A DNA stretch of 27,206 nt from Candidatus Cloacimonadota bacterium. Lineage in GTDB: Bacteria; Cloacimonadota; Cloacimonadia; JGIOTU-2; B8-G9. The number at the start of each line of letters is the position of its first letter. The first letter of the stretch is position 1. The stretch spans positions 1 through 27,206 of the forward strand of contig QMNM01000002.1 in assembly GCA_003647765.1 (NCBI GenBank), given 5' to 3'. The notes under the pieces were generated by a model. That model did no database searches and was not told where the DNA came from. It saw only the letters and a list, made by a program, of their open reading frames with translations. This document shows, one piece after another, positions 7,069-19,314 of this stretch. A program made the position numbers and the translations under genes.

Positions 7069-10000
7069 ATGAAGAAAATATGTATAGCATTGATTGGACT
7101 ATTTATATTAACAGCATTCCAATTAGTTGCACACAGCAATATCCAATTTGAAAATCTCGGTAATAAAATCATTGTTCATTATGAAAGTGAAAAATATCAG
7201 CAAAGAGAAGAACATAATGATATTTACAAAATGATTGCTCTATATTCTGATACTGCGAAAATTCTTATTGATAATTTTAATATCTCAATTTACTCAAAAC
7301 AAGGGAAATTCTTACATAGCACAAATAAATCTAATTGTCCTCTTGTCCTCTCGAACTCTTGTCCTCTTGAACTCTTGTCCTCCGAAAACTGGGTAGAGAT
7401 AGTAAATCATTATGTAATGAGAGAGTTAAAAGCATATCAGATTAGAATTAGGACGAAAATAGAAAATGATGAAGAAATAGCTATATTGGATAATATTGAT
7501 TTTGAGATTATTCCAATAGACAAGACGGATTTACCAAATGGCGTTTCTCAGGCATTCTTACCAATTTACAAATCATTTATAGACAATTTTGATACTTCAT
7601 ATCTGTATGATTTGCCAATTAGAAAATCTAAAATGTTGATTATTTCTCATCAAGATTTATTAAACAATCCTAATCCAGCAATAGCAGAGTACTTACAAGA
7701 TTTTATAGATTGGAAATCTGCAAAAGGAATTTCCATTGTTACTGCTGACATTGAGACAATAGGAAATACAACCACACAGATAAAGAATTATATTCAAAAT
7801 GCTTATGATACTTGGGAAATTCCACCGGATTATCTTTTATTGATTGGAGATGTTGATGATAATTATGAAATTCCATCTTGGTATATTAGTACTGAACATG
7901 ATGTAACAGACCATCCTTATACTCTTTTGGCAGGAAATGATTATTTTCCTGAAATATTAGTTGGCAGAATTTCCATTGATAATCTGATAGAGTTCCCGAC
8001 AGTTCTTAATAAAATTTTGGATTATGAGAAAAGACCTTGCCTTGATGATCCTGAGTGGCTTACACGAGCCCTTGTTGTAGCTGGAAATTATAGTACTTCA
8101 CCTCCAACACCAACTACACCAATTAAAACATCTCGCTGGTTACGAGAGAAATTGCTTAATTTCGGCTACACTCAAGTAGATACAGTATTTTATCCACCAA
8201 CTGCATCTGGAACTACTGAAATTACAGCGTTTATAAATAATCATCTTGGATTTGTTAATTATCGTGGTTGGGGAGATGCTAATGGCTGGCATTGGCCAGA
8301 ATTCCAAATACCTGATGTACAAGCATTAACTAATGACTCGTATTTACCTGTAATTACATCCTTCGTGTGTAATACAGGCGATTTTGCTAATAGTGTGGAT
8401 CCTTGTTTTGGTGAAGCATGGCTAAGACTCGGAACACCTATGGGTCCAAAAGGAGGAGTAATATTTATTGGACCATCTGACCTACATACAAGCACAAAAT
8501 ATAATAATTCAATCTCCTCAGGATTTTATTATGGATTATTAGATGAAAATATACTCGGCTTTGGCAGTGCAGTTTTAAGAGGAAAATTAGAACTATACAA
8601 TAATTTCCCTCTTAATAGAGAATCTGGTGATAAGGTAGAATTTTATTTCCATGTATATAATATTTTAGGTGACCCTTCACTGTCAATGTGGACAAAAATT
8701 CCTGAGGAGATAAATTGTGATTTGCCAGATGAAATCAGCATAGGCACAAACTATTTGGAATTTAATTTGCCTAATATGGATGGCGGCATTGTTACAGCAA
8801 GGAAAGATGACGAATTTCATGTTAATGAAATAATTGAGAGTGGACAGGCAATTCTTTATATCACTCCACAAACAGAAGGCGACATGGAAGTGGTGATTAC
8901 AAAAGGTAATTATATCCCATTTATTGACACAATAAATATAGTATCAGAACCAACTGATGTTGGACTTTCTAATTATAATATATTAGGAGATGGCATTGTA
9001 AATCCAGGCGATAATATCACATTGGAAATTACTTTACAAAATCACGGCACACAATCTGTCAACTCAGTTTCTGCTGAATTATCTACAAATAATCAATTTG
9101 TTAATATTACGACTAATTCTGCGGATTTTGGGACTATCAATCCAACTGCAACAGCAACTGCTAATTATCAATTTGAGCTTATGTCCAACTGCCCTGATAA
9201 TGAGGTATTGGAATTCACACTGAATATTTCAACTGGAAATATTAGTAAATTTGAAATAATTGTTACAGGTTTGGCTTTTGAAATTGATACTGTTATTGTA
9301 GATGATGCAAATGGTATATTAGACCCTGGCGAACAGAAAGAGATTACTGTTTCTATTGAAAATATTGGAAGTTCAGATGCTGTAAATTTAACAGGAATTT
9401 TAACTGCTTTAACAGATGCTGTAAATATTATAGATTCAACAGGTGATTTTGGCAATATTGTTAGTTCTGATATTGGACAGGCAAATTTCACTGTAATGGC
9501 TTATGAGGACTGTTTTGTAGGACGGAATGCTGGATTCAGAATTGATCTTACTGATGGAAATGGTTTAGTGTCATCTGTTAGTTTCTCTTTAGAAATTGGT
9601 GAAGTTGACAGCACAGCACCGACTGGGCCTGATGGTTATGGCTATTTTGCTTATGATAGCAATGATACAGAATATTCTGAATGTCCAACTTATCAATGGT
9701 ATGAAATTGACCCAAACCAGGGAGGCGATGGAACAGTAATTTTAATGCGCGATGATGTCTCACATACAATTGAATTGCCTTTTGATTTTACATATTACGG
9801 AGTAGCACACGACACTATTACAATCTGTTCAAATGGCTGGATTTCGTTTATGCCTACCTGGATGACAAATTTCCGTAATTGGAGTATCCCATCTGCATTA
9901 GGAGCTTATGCAATGGCTGCTCCATATTGGGACGATTTACAAGGAGAATATAATCCTGCTGACTCTAGTTATGCAGATATGAGAATTTGCTATTATTATG

Positions 10001-10629
10001 ATACGGAGAACAGCCGTTTTATCATAGAATGGAATGATTGTTTTGACCATAGCGGAATCTTTTTGGAAAAGTTTGAGATTGTCTTATATGACCCAGCAAT
10101 ATATCAAACTCAAGATGGCAATGGTGAGATTCAATTTAATTATCATACAATAAATAATCCTGATGCGACAAGTAATTATGCTACTGTTGGAATAGAGAAT
10201 TTAGACCAATCTGATGGATTGCTTTATACTTATGCTAATATCTATTCAGCAAGTGCAACTCCTTTGGATAATGAGCTTGCTATTAAATTTACTACTGACC
10301 CACCTGATAATTATGTAGGAATTGATGACAATGAAACAGTTTTAGCCACTGGAATTAAATTGTATCAGAACTATCCTAATCCATTTAATCCGAAAACCTG
10401 TATTAAATATTCGCTTACCAAATCTGCAAATGTCTGTTTGAAGATATATAATATCAAAGGTGAATTTGTAAAGACATTGTTAGATGAAAGGCAGAAATCT
10501 GGTTATCATAATGTAATTTGGGATGGTAATCATTATAAAAATAAAGCAGTTAATTCGGGTATCTATTTCTATCGTCTAAAAGTAGATGATAAGGTAATAG
10601 ACACAAGGAAATGTTTGCTTTTGAAGTGA
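7069..10629 (+). CDS. Secreted C25 (gingipain-like) family protein with T9SS-type sorting domain
   Basis: This 1186-residue protein begins with a signal peptide (about 1-22). A peptidase C25-like domain spans roughly 195-560, with LLIGDVDDNYEIPSWY, LVGRISIDN and the Cys motif SFVCNTGDFAN (Cys434). The gingipain catalytic His should lie 33 residues before the Cys (RgpB His211/Cys244); here that position is Trp401 in NYRGWGDANG, so activity is uncertain. His408 is the nearest alternative. Two beta-sandwich repeats (about 630-860) with DGIVNPGD and NGILDPGEQ follow, then a further beta-rich domain. From about 1098, LYQNYPNPFNPKT to GIYFYRLKVDD and the C-terminal CLLLK form a FlgD-like / T9SS type A sorting domain. 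This predicts export and surface attachment or release by type IX secretion. A repeat array encodes residues 90-106. AGGAGG supports the start. Confidence 0.88.
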   Translation: MKKICIALIGLFILTAFQLVAHSNIQFENLGNKIIVHYESEKYQQREEHNDIYKMIALYSDTAKILIDNFNISIYSKQGKFLHSTNKSNCPLVLSNSCPLELLSSENWVEIVNHYVMRELKAYQIRIRTKIENDEEIAILDNIDFEIIPIDKTDLPNGVSQAFLPIYKSFIDNFDTSYLYDLPIRKSKMLIISHQDLLNNPNPAIAEYLQDFIDWKSAKGISIVTADIETIGNTTTQIKNYIQNAYDTWEIPPDYLLLIGDVDDNYEIPSWYISTEHDVTDHPYTLLAGNDYFPEILVGRISIDNLIEFPTVLNKILDYEKRPCLDDPEWLTRALVVAGNYSTSPPTPTTPIKTSRWLREKLLNFGYTQVDTVFYPPTASGTTEITAFINNHLGFVNYRGWGDANGWHWPEFQIPDVQALTNDSYLPVITSFVCNTGDFANSVDPCFGEAWLRLGTPMGPKGGVIFIGPSDLHTSTKYNNSISSGFYYGLLDENILGFGSAVLRGKLELYNNFPLNRESGDKVEFYFHVYNILGDPSLSMWTKIPEEINCDLPDEISIGTNYLEFNLPNMDGGIVTARKDDEFHVNEIIESGQAILYITPQTEGDMEVVITKGNYIPFIDTINIVSEPTDVGLSNYNILGDGIVNPGDNITLEITLQNHGTQSVNSVSAELSTNNQFVNITTNSADFGTINPTATATANYQFELMSNCPDNEVLEFTLNISTGNISKFEIIVTGLAFEIDTVIVDDANGILDPGEQKEITVSIENIGSSDAVNLTGILTALTDAVNIIDSTGDFGNIVSSDIGQANFTVMAYEDCFVGRNAGFRIDLTDGNGLVSSVSFSLEIGEVDSTAPTGPDGYGYFAYDSNDTEYSECPTYQWYEIDPNQGGDGTVILMRDDVSHTIELPFDFTYYGVAHDTITICSNGWISFMPTWMTNFRNWSIPSALGAYAMAAPYWDDLQGEYNPADSSYADMRICYYYDTENSRFIIEWNDCFDHSGIFLEKFEIVLYDPAIYQTQDGNGEIQFNYHTINNPDATSNYATVGIENLDQSDGLLYTYANIYSASATPLDNELAIKFTTDPPDNYVGIDDNETVLATGIKLYQNYPNPFNPKTCIKYSLTKSANVCLKIYNIKGEFVKTLLDERQKSGYHNVIWDGNHYKNKAVNSGIYFYRLKVDDKVIDTRKCLLLK
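7337..7384 (+). repeat. Six-unit GNNNTCTT octamer array inside the C25 gene
   Basis: Six consecutive octamers: GTCCTCTT, GTCCTCTC, GAACTCTT, GTCCTCTT, GAACTCTT, GTCCTCCG. Total 48 bases, a multiple of three, so the reading frame is kept. It encodes the Cys/Pro/Leu/Ser-rich residues 90-106 (CPLVLSNSCPLELLSSE). The same unit builds the array upstream of purQ at 18514-18593. Confidence 0.9.
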
Positions 10630-10656: not shown

Positions 10657-10749
10657 AATATCTTTTTGTGTTTTTTACGCATTACGCACTACGCATTACG
10701 CACTACGCATTACGCATTACGCATTACGCATTGTGTAATTTTGTGTCTT
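10657..10749 (-). repeat. Dispersed element D4 (reverse) split by a heptamer array
   Basis: Left part AATATCTTTTTGTGTTTTTT (10657-10676) and right part GTGTAATTTTGTGTCTTA (from 10733) together form the reverse complement of the D element. Copy D3 at 18224-18270 has the same two halves joined directly. The heptamer array 10677-10732 separates them. Confidence 0.75.
10677..10732 (+). repeat. Eight-unit ACGCATT/ACGCACT tandem array
   Basis: Eight perfect-length heptamers in the order ACGCATT, ACGCACT, ACGCATT, ACGCACT, then four ACGCATT. Only position 6 of the unit varies (T or C). It lies between the C25 gene and the leuC-type gene. ATGCGTA, a reverse-strand version of the unit, also occurs just after the C25 stop near 10629. 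It resembles the short tandemly repeated repetitive (STRR) heptamers known from cyanobacteria in style, not in sequence. Confidence 0.92.
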
Positions 10750-18198: not shown

Positions 18199-18223
18199 TA
18201 TTTTAGTCGGTTAACTTTTGATA

Positions 18224-18270
18224 TTAGCCACGAAATTACACGAAAAAACACAAAAAGATATTAGACATTG
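18224..18270 (+). repeat. Dispersed GCCACAAAAT element, copy D3
   Basis: TTAGCCACGAAATTACACGA, then AAAAACACAAAAAGATATTA and GACATTG. It is the most complete copy, and the reference for seeing that D4 (10657-10749) is interrupted. It starts 26 bases upstream of the lipoprotein start codon. Confidence 0.75.
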
Positions 18271-18307
18271 ATAATATTGGCATCTTTCAACCGTGTGAAA
18301 CCCGTGT

Positions 18308-18346
18308 GAAAGCCGACTCGAGTTAAAAGAACCCGAATCGAGTTTC
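18308..18346. repeat. Dispersed 18-base-arm hairpin, copy B
   Basis: GAAAGCCGACTCGAGTTA, loop AAA, GAACCCGAATCGAGTTTC. It is closely similar to copy C (27052-27090), with a few stem mismatches. It is preceded by GTGT and followed by CTGT or TGTAAA, as in copy C, which helps define the element's edges. Confidence 0.85.
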
Positions 18347-18354
18347 TGTAAAAG

Positions 18355-18370
18355 CGACTTTGGAAGGTCG
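18355..18370. repeat. GGAAGGTC hairpin, copy 1
   Basis: CGACTTT-GG-AAGGTCG pairs along 7 positions (one G-T). The segment CTTTGGAAGGTCGTTCTA matches the second copy, CCTTGGAAGGTCATCCTA, at 18491-18508, so the two are a short dispersed repeat within the same gap. Confidence 0.6.
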
Positions 18371-18489
18371 TTCTACTTTTTCAATTTTCATTAGCAGGAA
18401 TCCGAGATAGAATATGTCAAATTTTTATGGAATGCTATACTATTGCAAAGATATATAAATTCTTATTCTCTTGAATTTTTGTTTTAACA

Positions 18490-18501
18490 ACCTTGGAAGG
18501 T
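18490..18501. repeat. GGAAGGTC hairpin, copy 2
   Basis: ACCTT-GG-AAGGT, a 5-bp palindrome with GG centre, related to 18355-18370. It sits directly upstream of the octamer array. Confidence 0.55.
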
Positions 18502-18513
18502 CATCCTATTCTT

Positions 18514-18593
18514 GTTATCTTGTCCTCTTGTTATCTTGAACTCTTGAATTCTTGTTATCTTGAACTCTTGAACTCTTGTTTTCTTGTTATCTT
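18514..18593 (+). repeat. Ten-unit GNNNTCTT octamer array upstream of purQ
   Basis: Ten consecutive octamers: GTTATCTT, GTCCTCTT, GTTATCTT, GAACTCTT, GAATTCTT, GTTATCTT, GAACTCTT, GAACTCTT, GTTTTCTT, GTTATCTT. A degenerate eleventh (CTATTCTT) precedes them. Positions 1 and 5-8 (G....TCTT) are invariant, while positions 2-4 take only TTA, TCC, AAC, AAT or TTT. Weaker relatives (TTCTTATTCTCTTGAATTTT) lie near 18460-18480. The array ends 13 bases before the purQ ATG and so occupies its leader or promoter. Confidence 0.92.
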
Positions 18594-18606
18594 ATTTTGG
18601 ACCAAT

Positions 18607-19314
18607 ATGAGATTTAATATAATAGTTTTTCCTGGTTCTAATTGTGATTATGACACATACTTTGTATTAAAAAATGTATTTCATTGCAAAGTAGATTTTA
18701 TTTGGCATAAGCAAGATAAATTAAAGAATGCTGATTGTGTAATATTGCCGGGTGGCTTTTCTTATGGTGATTACTTGCGTCCTGGTGCAATTGCTTCATT
18801 TTCGCCAATTATGCAAGAGCTAAAGAAATTTGCTCAAAGAGGTGGTTTGGTCTTGGGTATATGTAATGGATTCCAAATGCTATTAGAAATGGGACTTTTG
18901 CCAGGTAGCTTAATGCTTAATAATACATTAAGTTTCATTTGTCGCAATGTGTATATTAAAGTAATAAATATGCATACGCCATTTACAAATACAATTGCAG
19001 AGAAAAATGTGTTGAAAATCCCGATAGCTCATAAAGAGGGAAACTATTTTATTGATGAAGAGAAGTTAAAAGAATTACAAAAAAATAATCAAATTGTATT
19101 TCAATATTGTGATAAACAGGGAAATACTACAGAGTATACAAATCCAAATGGTTCTGTAAATAACATTGCTGGAATTATCAATAAAAATGGCAATGTTCTT
19201 GGAATGATGCCACATCCAGAGCGAGCTTCGGAAATGATACTCGGTTCTGATGATGGAAAGTTTATCTTTCAGTCAATTATCGCAAGTACTTTTGCGAATC
19301 ATCATAAAATTTGA
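18607..19314 (+). CDS. purQ: Phosphoribosylformylglycinamidine synthase, glutaminase subunit
   Basis: A 235-residue class I glutamine amidotransferase that supplies ammonia to PurL in step four of purine synthesis. It begins at ATG 18607 ([16 protein letters not shown]), the normal N-terminus of PurQ. The longer frame from 18493 is rejected because its extra 38 residues translate a tandem octamer repeat. The catalytic Cys86 is in [13 protein letters not shown]; the His and Glu of the triad are in [25 protein letters not shown] is also PurQ-typical. PurS and PurL are not nearby. Only a weak TTGGA precedes the start, and the octamer array lies immediately upstream. Confidence 0.95.

Follow-up and report, generated by a model that had tools for sequence, protein, structure and literature searches.

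An octamer array upstream of purQ is probably one copy of a dispersed, lineage-specific repeat family in a Candidatus Cloacimonadota genome

The octamer array just upstream of purQ probably belongs to a lineage-specific family of selfish or neutral repeats that is dispersed through the genome, each unit consisting of the pentamer TCTTG and three non-G bases. In the best reading of the data, the array has no dedicated role near purQ: it is neither a leader of this gene nor a phase switch. In the window (the whole stretch of 27,206 nucleotides that was analysed), positions 18514-18593 read as ten tandem octamers of the form G-NNN-TCTT with five invariant positions, in the order GTTATCTT GTCCTCTT GTTATCTT GAACTCTT GAATTCTT GTTATCTT GAACTCTT GAACTCTT GTTTTCTT GTTATCTT. 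The variable triplet is TTA in four units, AAC in three, and TCC, AAT, and TTT in one each. Thirteen bases (18594-18606) separate the array from the ATG of purQ at 18607; the gene occupies positions 18607-19314 on the forward strand, and its product was identified with Pfam (GATase_5, PF13507). The earlier note's description of ten octamers with five triplets, 13 nucleotides before purQ, was thus correct to the base. The array was recovered independently by TRF. Its more natural register is TCTTG+NNN, which starts at 18510 and gives ten perfect cores over positions 18510-18593 of the forward strand. In 100 composition-matched windows generated by a first-order Markov model, chains of identical pentamers spaced at period 8 reached at most 3 units, whereas this array has 10. 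It folds weakly (-4.1 kcal/mol for one strand and -7.7 kcal/mol for the other), and a hairpin role for the octamer array was therefore rejected.

The earlier note had made its view of the array as patterned depend on the array not being unique in the genome, and it is far from unique: the three-unit TCTTG+NNN pattern has 234 matches in the 1.97-Mb genome, and the reversed-pattern control has 1. When all pentamers with gaps of 1-9 nucleotides were scanned over 0.58 Mb of this genome, only two families stood out as strong, TCTTG+3 (26 loci) and TACGC+2 (approximately 25 loci), and 81 of the 104 TCTTG+3 triples had unequal spacers. Individual arrays were analysed in detail in 66 stretches comprising 0.69 Mb of the 1.97 Mb; the source is a single, fragmented assembly of 360 contigs with 88.8% completeness, in which short reads could have collapsed array lengths. 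Beyond this genome, the three-unit pattern matched one of 58 relatives (two matches), and the four-unit pattern, searched in 124 genomes of the group, was found in the genome of origin and as one single match elsewhere; the family is essentially absent from the 123 other group genomes. Octamer families built on TCTTG but with other spacer vocabularies occur in a Prevotellaceae bin from the rumen (T[CT]N), where autocorrelation indicates ordinary slippage, and in several Bacteroidales (CRG). An Acidobacteria bin has TCTTG octamers with RGG spacers, a case that is not clean because the reversed control was also high. Viral stretches with five-unit octamer matches numbered 7 in 2.9 million contigs, and a literature search for the unit sequences returned nothing relevant.

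The family is defined by a steady core and a restricted spacer. Among 22 arrays of at least four units in the 0.69-Mb sample, 4 of 113 interior cores were mutated, a rate of 0.7% per base, which is a lower estimate because the chain rule requires exact cores at both ends and tolerates a single missing core at a time. Spacer letters in the same arrays deviated from their own array's consensus at 33%, a contrast too large to be caused by the chain rule. The second family, TACGC+NN, has the same design of constant core and variable spacer, with 1.0% substitution per core base and 30% spacer deviation. Its array in the window, with AT and AC spacers, lies at positions 10675-10732 of the forward strand (TRF, pentamer scan, core and spacer rates) and begins ATTACGCACTACGC. 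Four-unit matches to TACGC+NN number 189 in the genome, and apart from three matches in two relatives the pattern is confined to it. Both families avoid G in the spacer: it occupies 4 of 405 positions in the octamers versus approximately 65 expected at the genomic 16.5% G, and 0 of 410 in the heptamers. Mutual information between octamer spacer positions was 0.96 bits versus 0.11 with shuffled columns, and the triplets therefore behave as discrete words, not as independent letters. Triplet choice is thus more restricted than base composition predicts, as the earlier note had supposed. AAC is present in 19 of 22 arrays and TCT in 10 of 22; the same triplets recur across unrelated arrays, with few forms intermediate between AAC and TCT.

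The order of the spacers speaks for duplication in blocks rather than slippage of single units, because neighbouring spacers are less alike than shuffled ones (identical in 0.21 versus 0.28 of octamer pairs and in 0.27 versus 0.36 of heptamer pairs) and identity is raised at lags 2 and 4 in the octamers and at lag 4 in the heptamers. These autocorrelation effects are modest in the octamers, approximately 2 standard deviations, and firmer in the heptamers. Spacer identity is 0.268 within arrays and 0.151 between them. Under simple slippage one would expect neither a core some 40-fold steadier than the spacer nor adjacent spacers that are less alike than shuffled ones.

The arrays are mostly intergenic, although they also interrupt genes. 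By crude ORF calls made without a gene finder, 16 of 26 are intergenic, 8 lie inside ORFs, and 2 lie at ORF ends, and intergenic DNA makes up approximately 17% of the sample. Orientation is balanced, with 5 sense and 6 antisense among the intergenic arrays flanked by co-directional genes, and arrays also occur downstream of stop codons. In the window, a second array (TCTTG with TCC or AAC, one core mutated to TCTCG; positions 7335-7386, forward strand; TRF, alignment) lies in frame in a PorU-like gene (7069-10629, forward strand), identified by domain search and alignment as encoding a C25 peptidase with a type IX secretion tail. In the alignment, 10 PorU relatives lack 16 residues at the insert site, which correspond to 48 nucleotides or six octamers, and an octamer segment in NnrDE is missing from 13 of 13 aligned relatives. 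The alignments thus show that the segments in both proteins are additions. Further host genes are those for LptD, RsmA (C-terminal tail), NrnA (C-terminal tail), a histidine kinase (tail), and FtsH (N-terminus). Such arrays are a warning for annotators, as they give housekeeping genes false-looking protein tails and inserts.

The purQ array is part of a small repeat island at 18.2-18.6 kb, so termed because several modules cluster there with it. Dispersed modules TTAGCCACGAAATTACACGAAAAAACACAAAAA and a CTCGAG-type palindromic module occupy intergenic positions 18219-18350 of the forward strand (sequence and module comparison). They are followed on the same strand by a copy of hairpin module B, GCGACTTTGGAAGGTCGTTCTAC, which has no octamers (18353-18376; module survey, folding), and by a degenerate copy of this module (consensus AACGACCTTGGAAGGTCGTTCTACTTCTTG), which runs straight into the array (18485-18509; module survey). 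Module B (AACGACCTTGGAAGGTCGTTCTACTTCTTG) was found in 13 copies in the first sample. Several arrays begin where module B ends, or where a longer CACGAA/"ADAVK" module, ending in ATTCCTATTTCACAGCATCAGCGTTCTCTTCTTG, stops; at a gene end, the ATTCCTATTTCACAGCATCAGCGTTCTCTTCTTG-ending module adds the tail ENADAVK. Module TTTCACAGCATCAGC together with octamers gives a common C-terminal tail, ENADA(V/I)K, to an unrelated histidine kinase, RsmA, and NrnA (loci L148:9620, L182:9227, L197:8108, L149:14860, and L201:311). At least five relatives have purS directly before purQ, with 22-49 nucleotides between the two; in this genome, purS is on another contig (C32), directly followed by a coaD-like ORF. 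The island (window positions 18200-18606) marks a broken purS-purQ linkage.

Several known kinds of repeats resemble this family in part. Short tandemly repeated repetitive (STRR) sequences of cyanobacteria comprise several heptamer families between the genes of one genome. By this definition alone, the families described here are alike in being scattered between the genes of one genome. As in STRR-type repeats, many short-unit arrays are dispersed in a single genome (at least 26 loci in 0.69 Mb), the arrays are predominantly intergenic (16 of 26 versus approximately 17% intergenic DNA), and the distribution is patchy and lineage specific, with unrelated genomes carrying their own versions. 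However, the octamer period is 8 and the STRR period is 7, a heptanucleotide length that the sister TACGC+NN unit shares; the octamer family works like an STRR but is not one. Rickettsia palindromic elements insert in frame in housekeeping proteins, and Streptococcus BOX elements are modular, their central units varying in number. In-frame insertions absent from orthologues are also found here (13 relatives for NnrDE, 10 for PorU). In contrast to both of these elements, the variable part of the TCTTG family is an 8-bp tandem array rather than a fixed-length palindrome; the array folds weakly, and only the adjoining module B is palindromic.

The nearest published kinds are the (GGGANTN)n arrays of Xanthomonas (PMC4692102) and the TAACTGA arrays of Beggiatoaceae (PMC4679880). 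In Xanthomonas, approximately 185 (GGGAATC)n or heterogeneous (GGGANTN)n arrays are dispersed per genome (PMC4692102). These arrays and the GGGGA(C/T)T arrays of Nostoc are mostly intergenic, lie on both strands, and adjoin different genes in related species; their constant part forms G-quadruplexes, and 7-11% of them are inside genes (PMC4692102). The TCTTG family is similar in its constant and variable positions in fixed register, its mostly intergenic placement, and its use of both strands. Unlike the Xanthomonas heptamers, it is an octamer, is more often inside genes, and has no G-run capable of forming G-quadruplexes, as TCTTG has a single G and the spacers are nearly G-free. TAACTGA heptamers have a patchy phylogeny, with arrays in Beggiatoaceae, Cyanobacteria, and some Bacteroidetes; the word is fixed, related heptamers are rare, and the arrays often lie just before start codons, to which they are strongly forward oriented, with some in ORFs near protein ends (PMC4679880). 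The octamers are likewise dispersed, short, tandem, patchy in phylogeny, and in some cases inside ORFs; however, their spacer varies, and forward orientation upstream of starts is not seen (5 sense, 6 antisense). The degenerate octamer design, namely the period, the lack of a G-tract, and the restricted three-base spacer, sets the TCTTG family apart.

Several other explanations bear on these data. Ordinary microsatellite decay, that is, arrays made by local slippage and altered by chance point mutations, agrees with the local homogeneity of some arrays, with the excess of spacer identity within arrays over that between arrays, and with the presence of homogeneous TCTTGNNN microsatellites in many unrelated genomes among the matches listed. 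However, decay should mutate core and spacer equally, yet they differ approximately 40-fold in two families, and the recurrence of triplets in unrelated arrays with few AAC-TCT intermediates also argues against it. We consider this explanation distinctly unlikely; in its purely local, chance form it is largely refuted by the core-to-spacer contrast. A phase-variable leader or contingency locus, in which a change in octamer number would turn purQ, or else the PorU-like gene, on or off, is very improbable. On the one hand, tandem octamers do lie just before the purQ start and in frame in the PorU-like gene, where an 8-bp change would shift the frame. On the other hand, imperfect units lower slippage, arrays inside genes are in frame, and the hosts are housekeeping genes (purQ and those for NnrDE, RsmA, and NrnA) rather than typical contingency genes. 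The near-perfect, singly slipping units of phase-variable SSRs are not what we see, as adjacent spacers are identical in 21% of cases versus 28% when shuffled, the opposite of single-unit slippage. The purQ leader or phase switch proposed in the earlier note is unsupported on wider grounds as well: the genes that arrays precede, follow, or interrupt are unrelated, the arrays occur in both orientations, and relatives lack such a leader. There is only a slight chance, in our view, that the family is a coding insertion element like those of Rickettsia, kept for its tolerated peptides (QEFKSSRV..., tails ENADAVK). In-frame insertions in several ORFs, a C-terminal tail module common to several proteins, and the coding use of the purine strand in 7 of 8 internal arrays would suit it; however, the majority of arrays are intergenic, the family consists of short units in tandem rather than a fixed-length palindrome, and the strand bias follows from the TGA stops that TCTTGA brings on the opposite strand.

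A protein-binding ladder, in which a protein that binds DNA or RNA recognises TCTTG, the triplet sets the 8-nucleotide step, and arrays titrate or position the protein, also seems unlikely. The near-invariant core beside a variable spacer is in its favour, the design is common to two families, one array lies 13 nucleotides before purQ, and TAACTGA repeats in Beggiatoaceae have been proposed as post-transcriptional sites (PMC4679880). Nevertheless, arrays occur in both orientations, after stops, and in ORFs whose mRNA carries the purine strand, which makes a common RNA-level role unlikely; the spacers are not free, being G-free discrete words that a pure spacer would not need; and no candidate binding protein was found. 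The far stronger conservation of the core than of the spacer leaves this earlier suggestion a small probability, but no evidence implicates a protein that binds the arrays. Of the three earlier suggestions, the data support the selfish STRR-like one, here widened to a selfish or neutral repeat: it fits the lineage-specific, genome-wide dispersal, balanced orientation, insertion in unrelated coding genes, and mosaic junctions. As such a repeat, the octamer family would spread and turn over alongside the sister heptamer family and the hairpin modules. The proposed source of new arrays and units is a copying process (gene conversion or template switching) in which strands pair again at the exact pentamer; as the pairing handle, cores would stay identical, triplets would travel along as interchangeable words, and copy number would shift by at least two units at a time. 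Protection of the core may thus reflect this pairing, or the core may be a binding word. The octamer arrays showed no identifiable transposition boundary or target duplication, and no enzyme that would copy them was identified. A Y1/RAYT transposase was rejected as the mover: the genome has a single Y1-type gene, whose flanks contain neither an array nor module B.

Another possibility, which we hold to be doubtful, is that a sequence-specific copying process adds or swaps units at the protected pentamer handle and shuffles the G-free triplets, with the octamer and heptamer families as two outputs that differ in handle and step. If this is true, core-plus-triplet arrays elsewhere, such as TCTAGA+NNN in rumen Prevotellaceae, would be further cases of that copying. 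Heptamer and octamer arrays have been known in bacteria for decades with no agreed mechanism of spreading; two families with a conserved core and a restricted spacer, together with gene inserts that relatives lack, help to distinguish a core that propagation or binding requires from slippage alone.

Other repeat families were seen in passing. On many contigs of the same genome, TRF recorded AAAGATT-type 9/10-mers, GAACTTACGC 10-mers, TTCTGNN heptamers, CACAGAG and CACGAA arrays, and a CTCGAGT-type palindromic element. A genome of the same class (G047) has homogeneous CGCATAA heptamer arrays genome-wide, with 29 four-unit matches. In the rumen Prevotellaceae bin (G124), TCTAG+4 occurs at 15 loci in 294 kb sampled, both strands counted; its TCTAGA+NNN nonamers (L300:11261, L311:1841, L312:11088, and L315:10176) have freely variable triplets, and some copies adjoin GC-rich inverted repeats, for example ggcgcgcctt.
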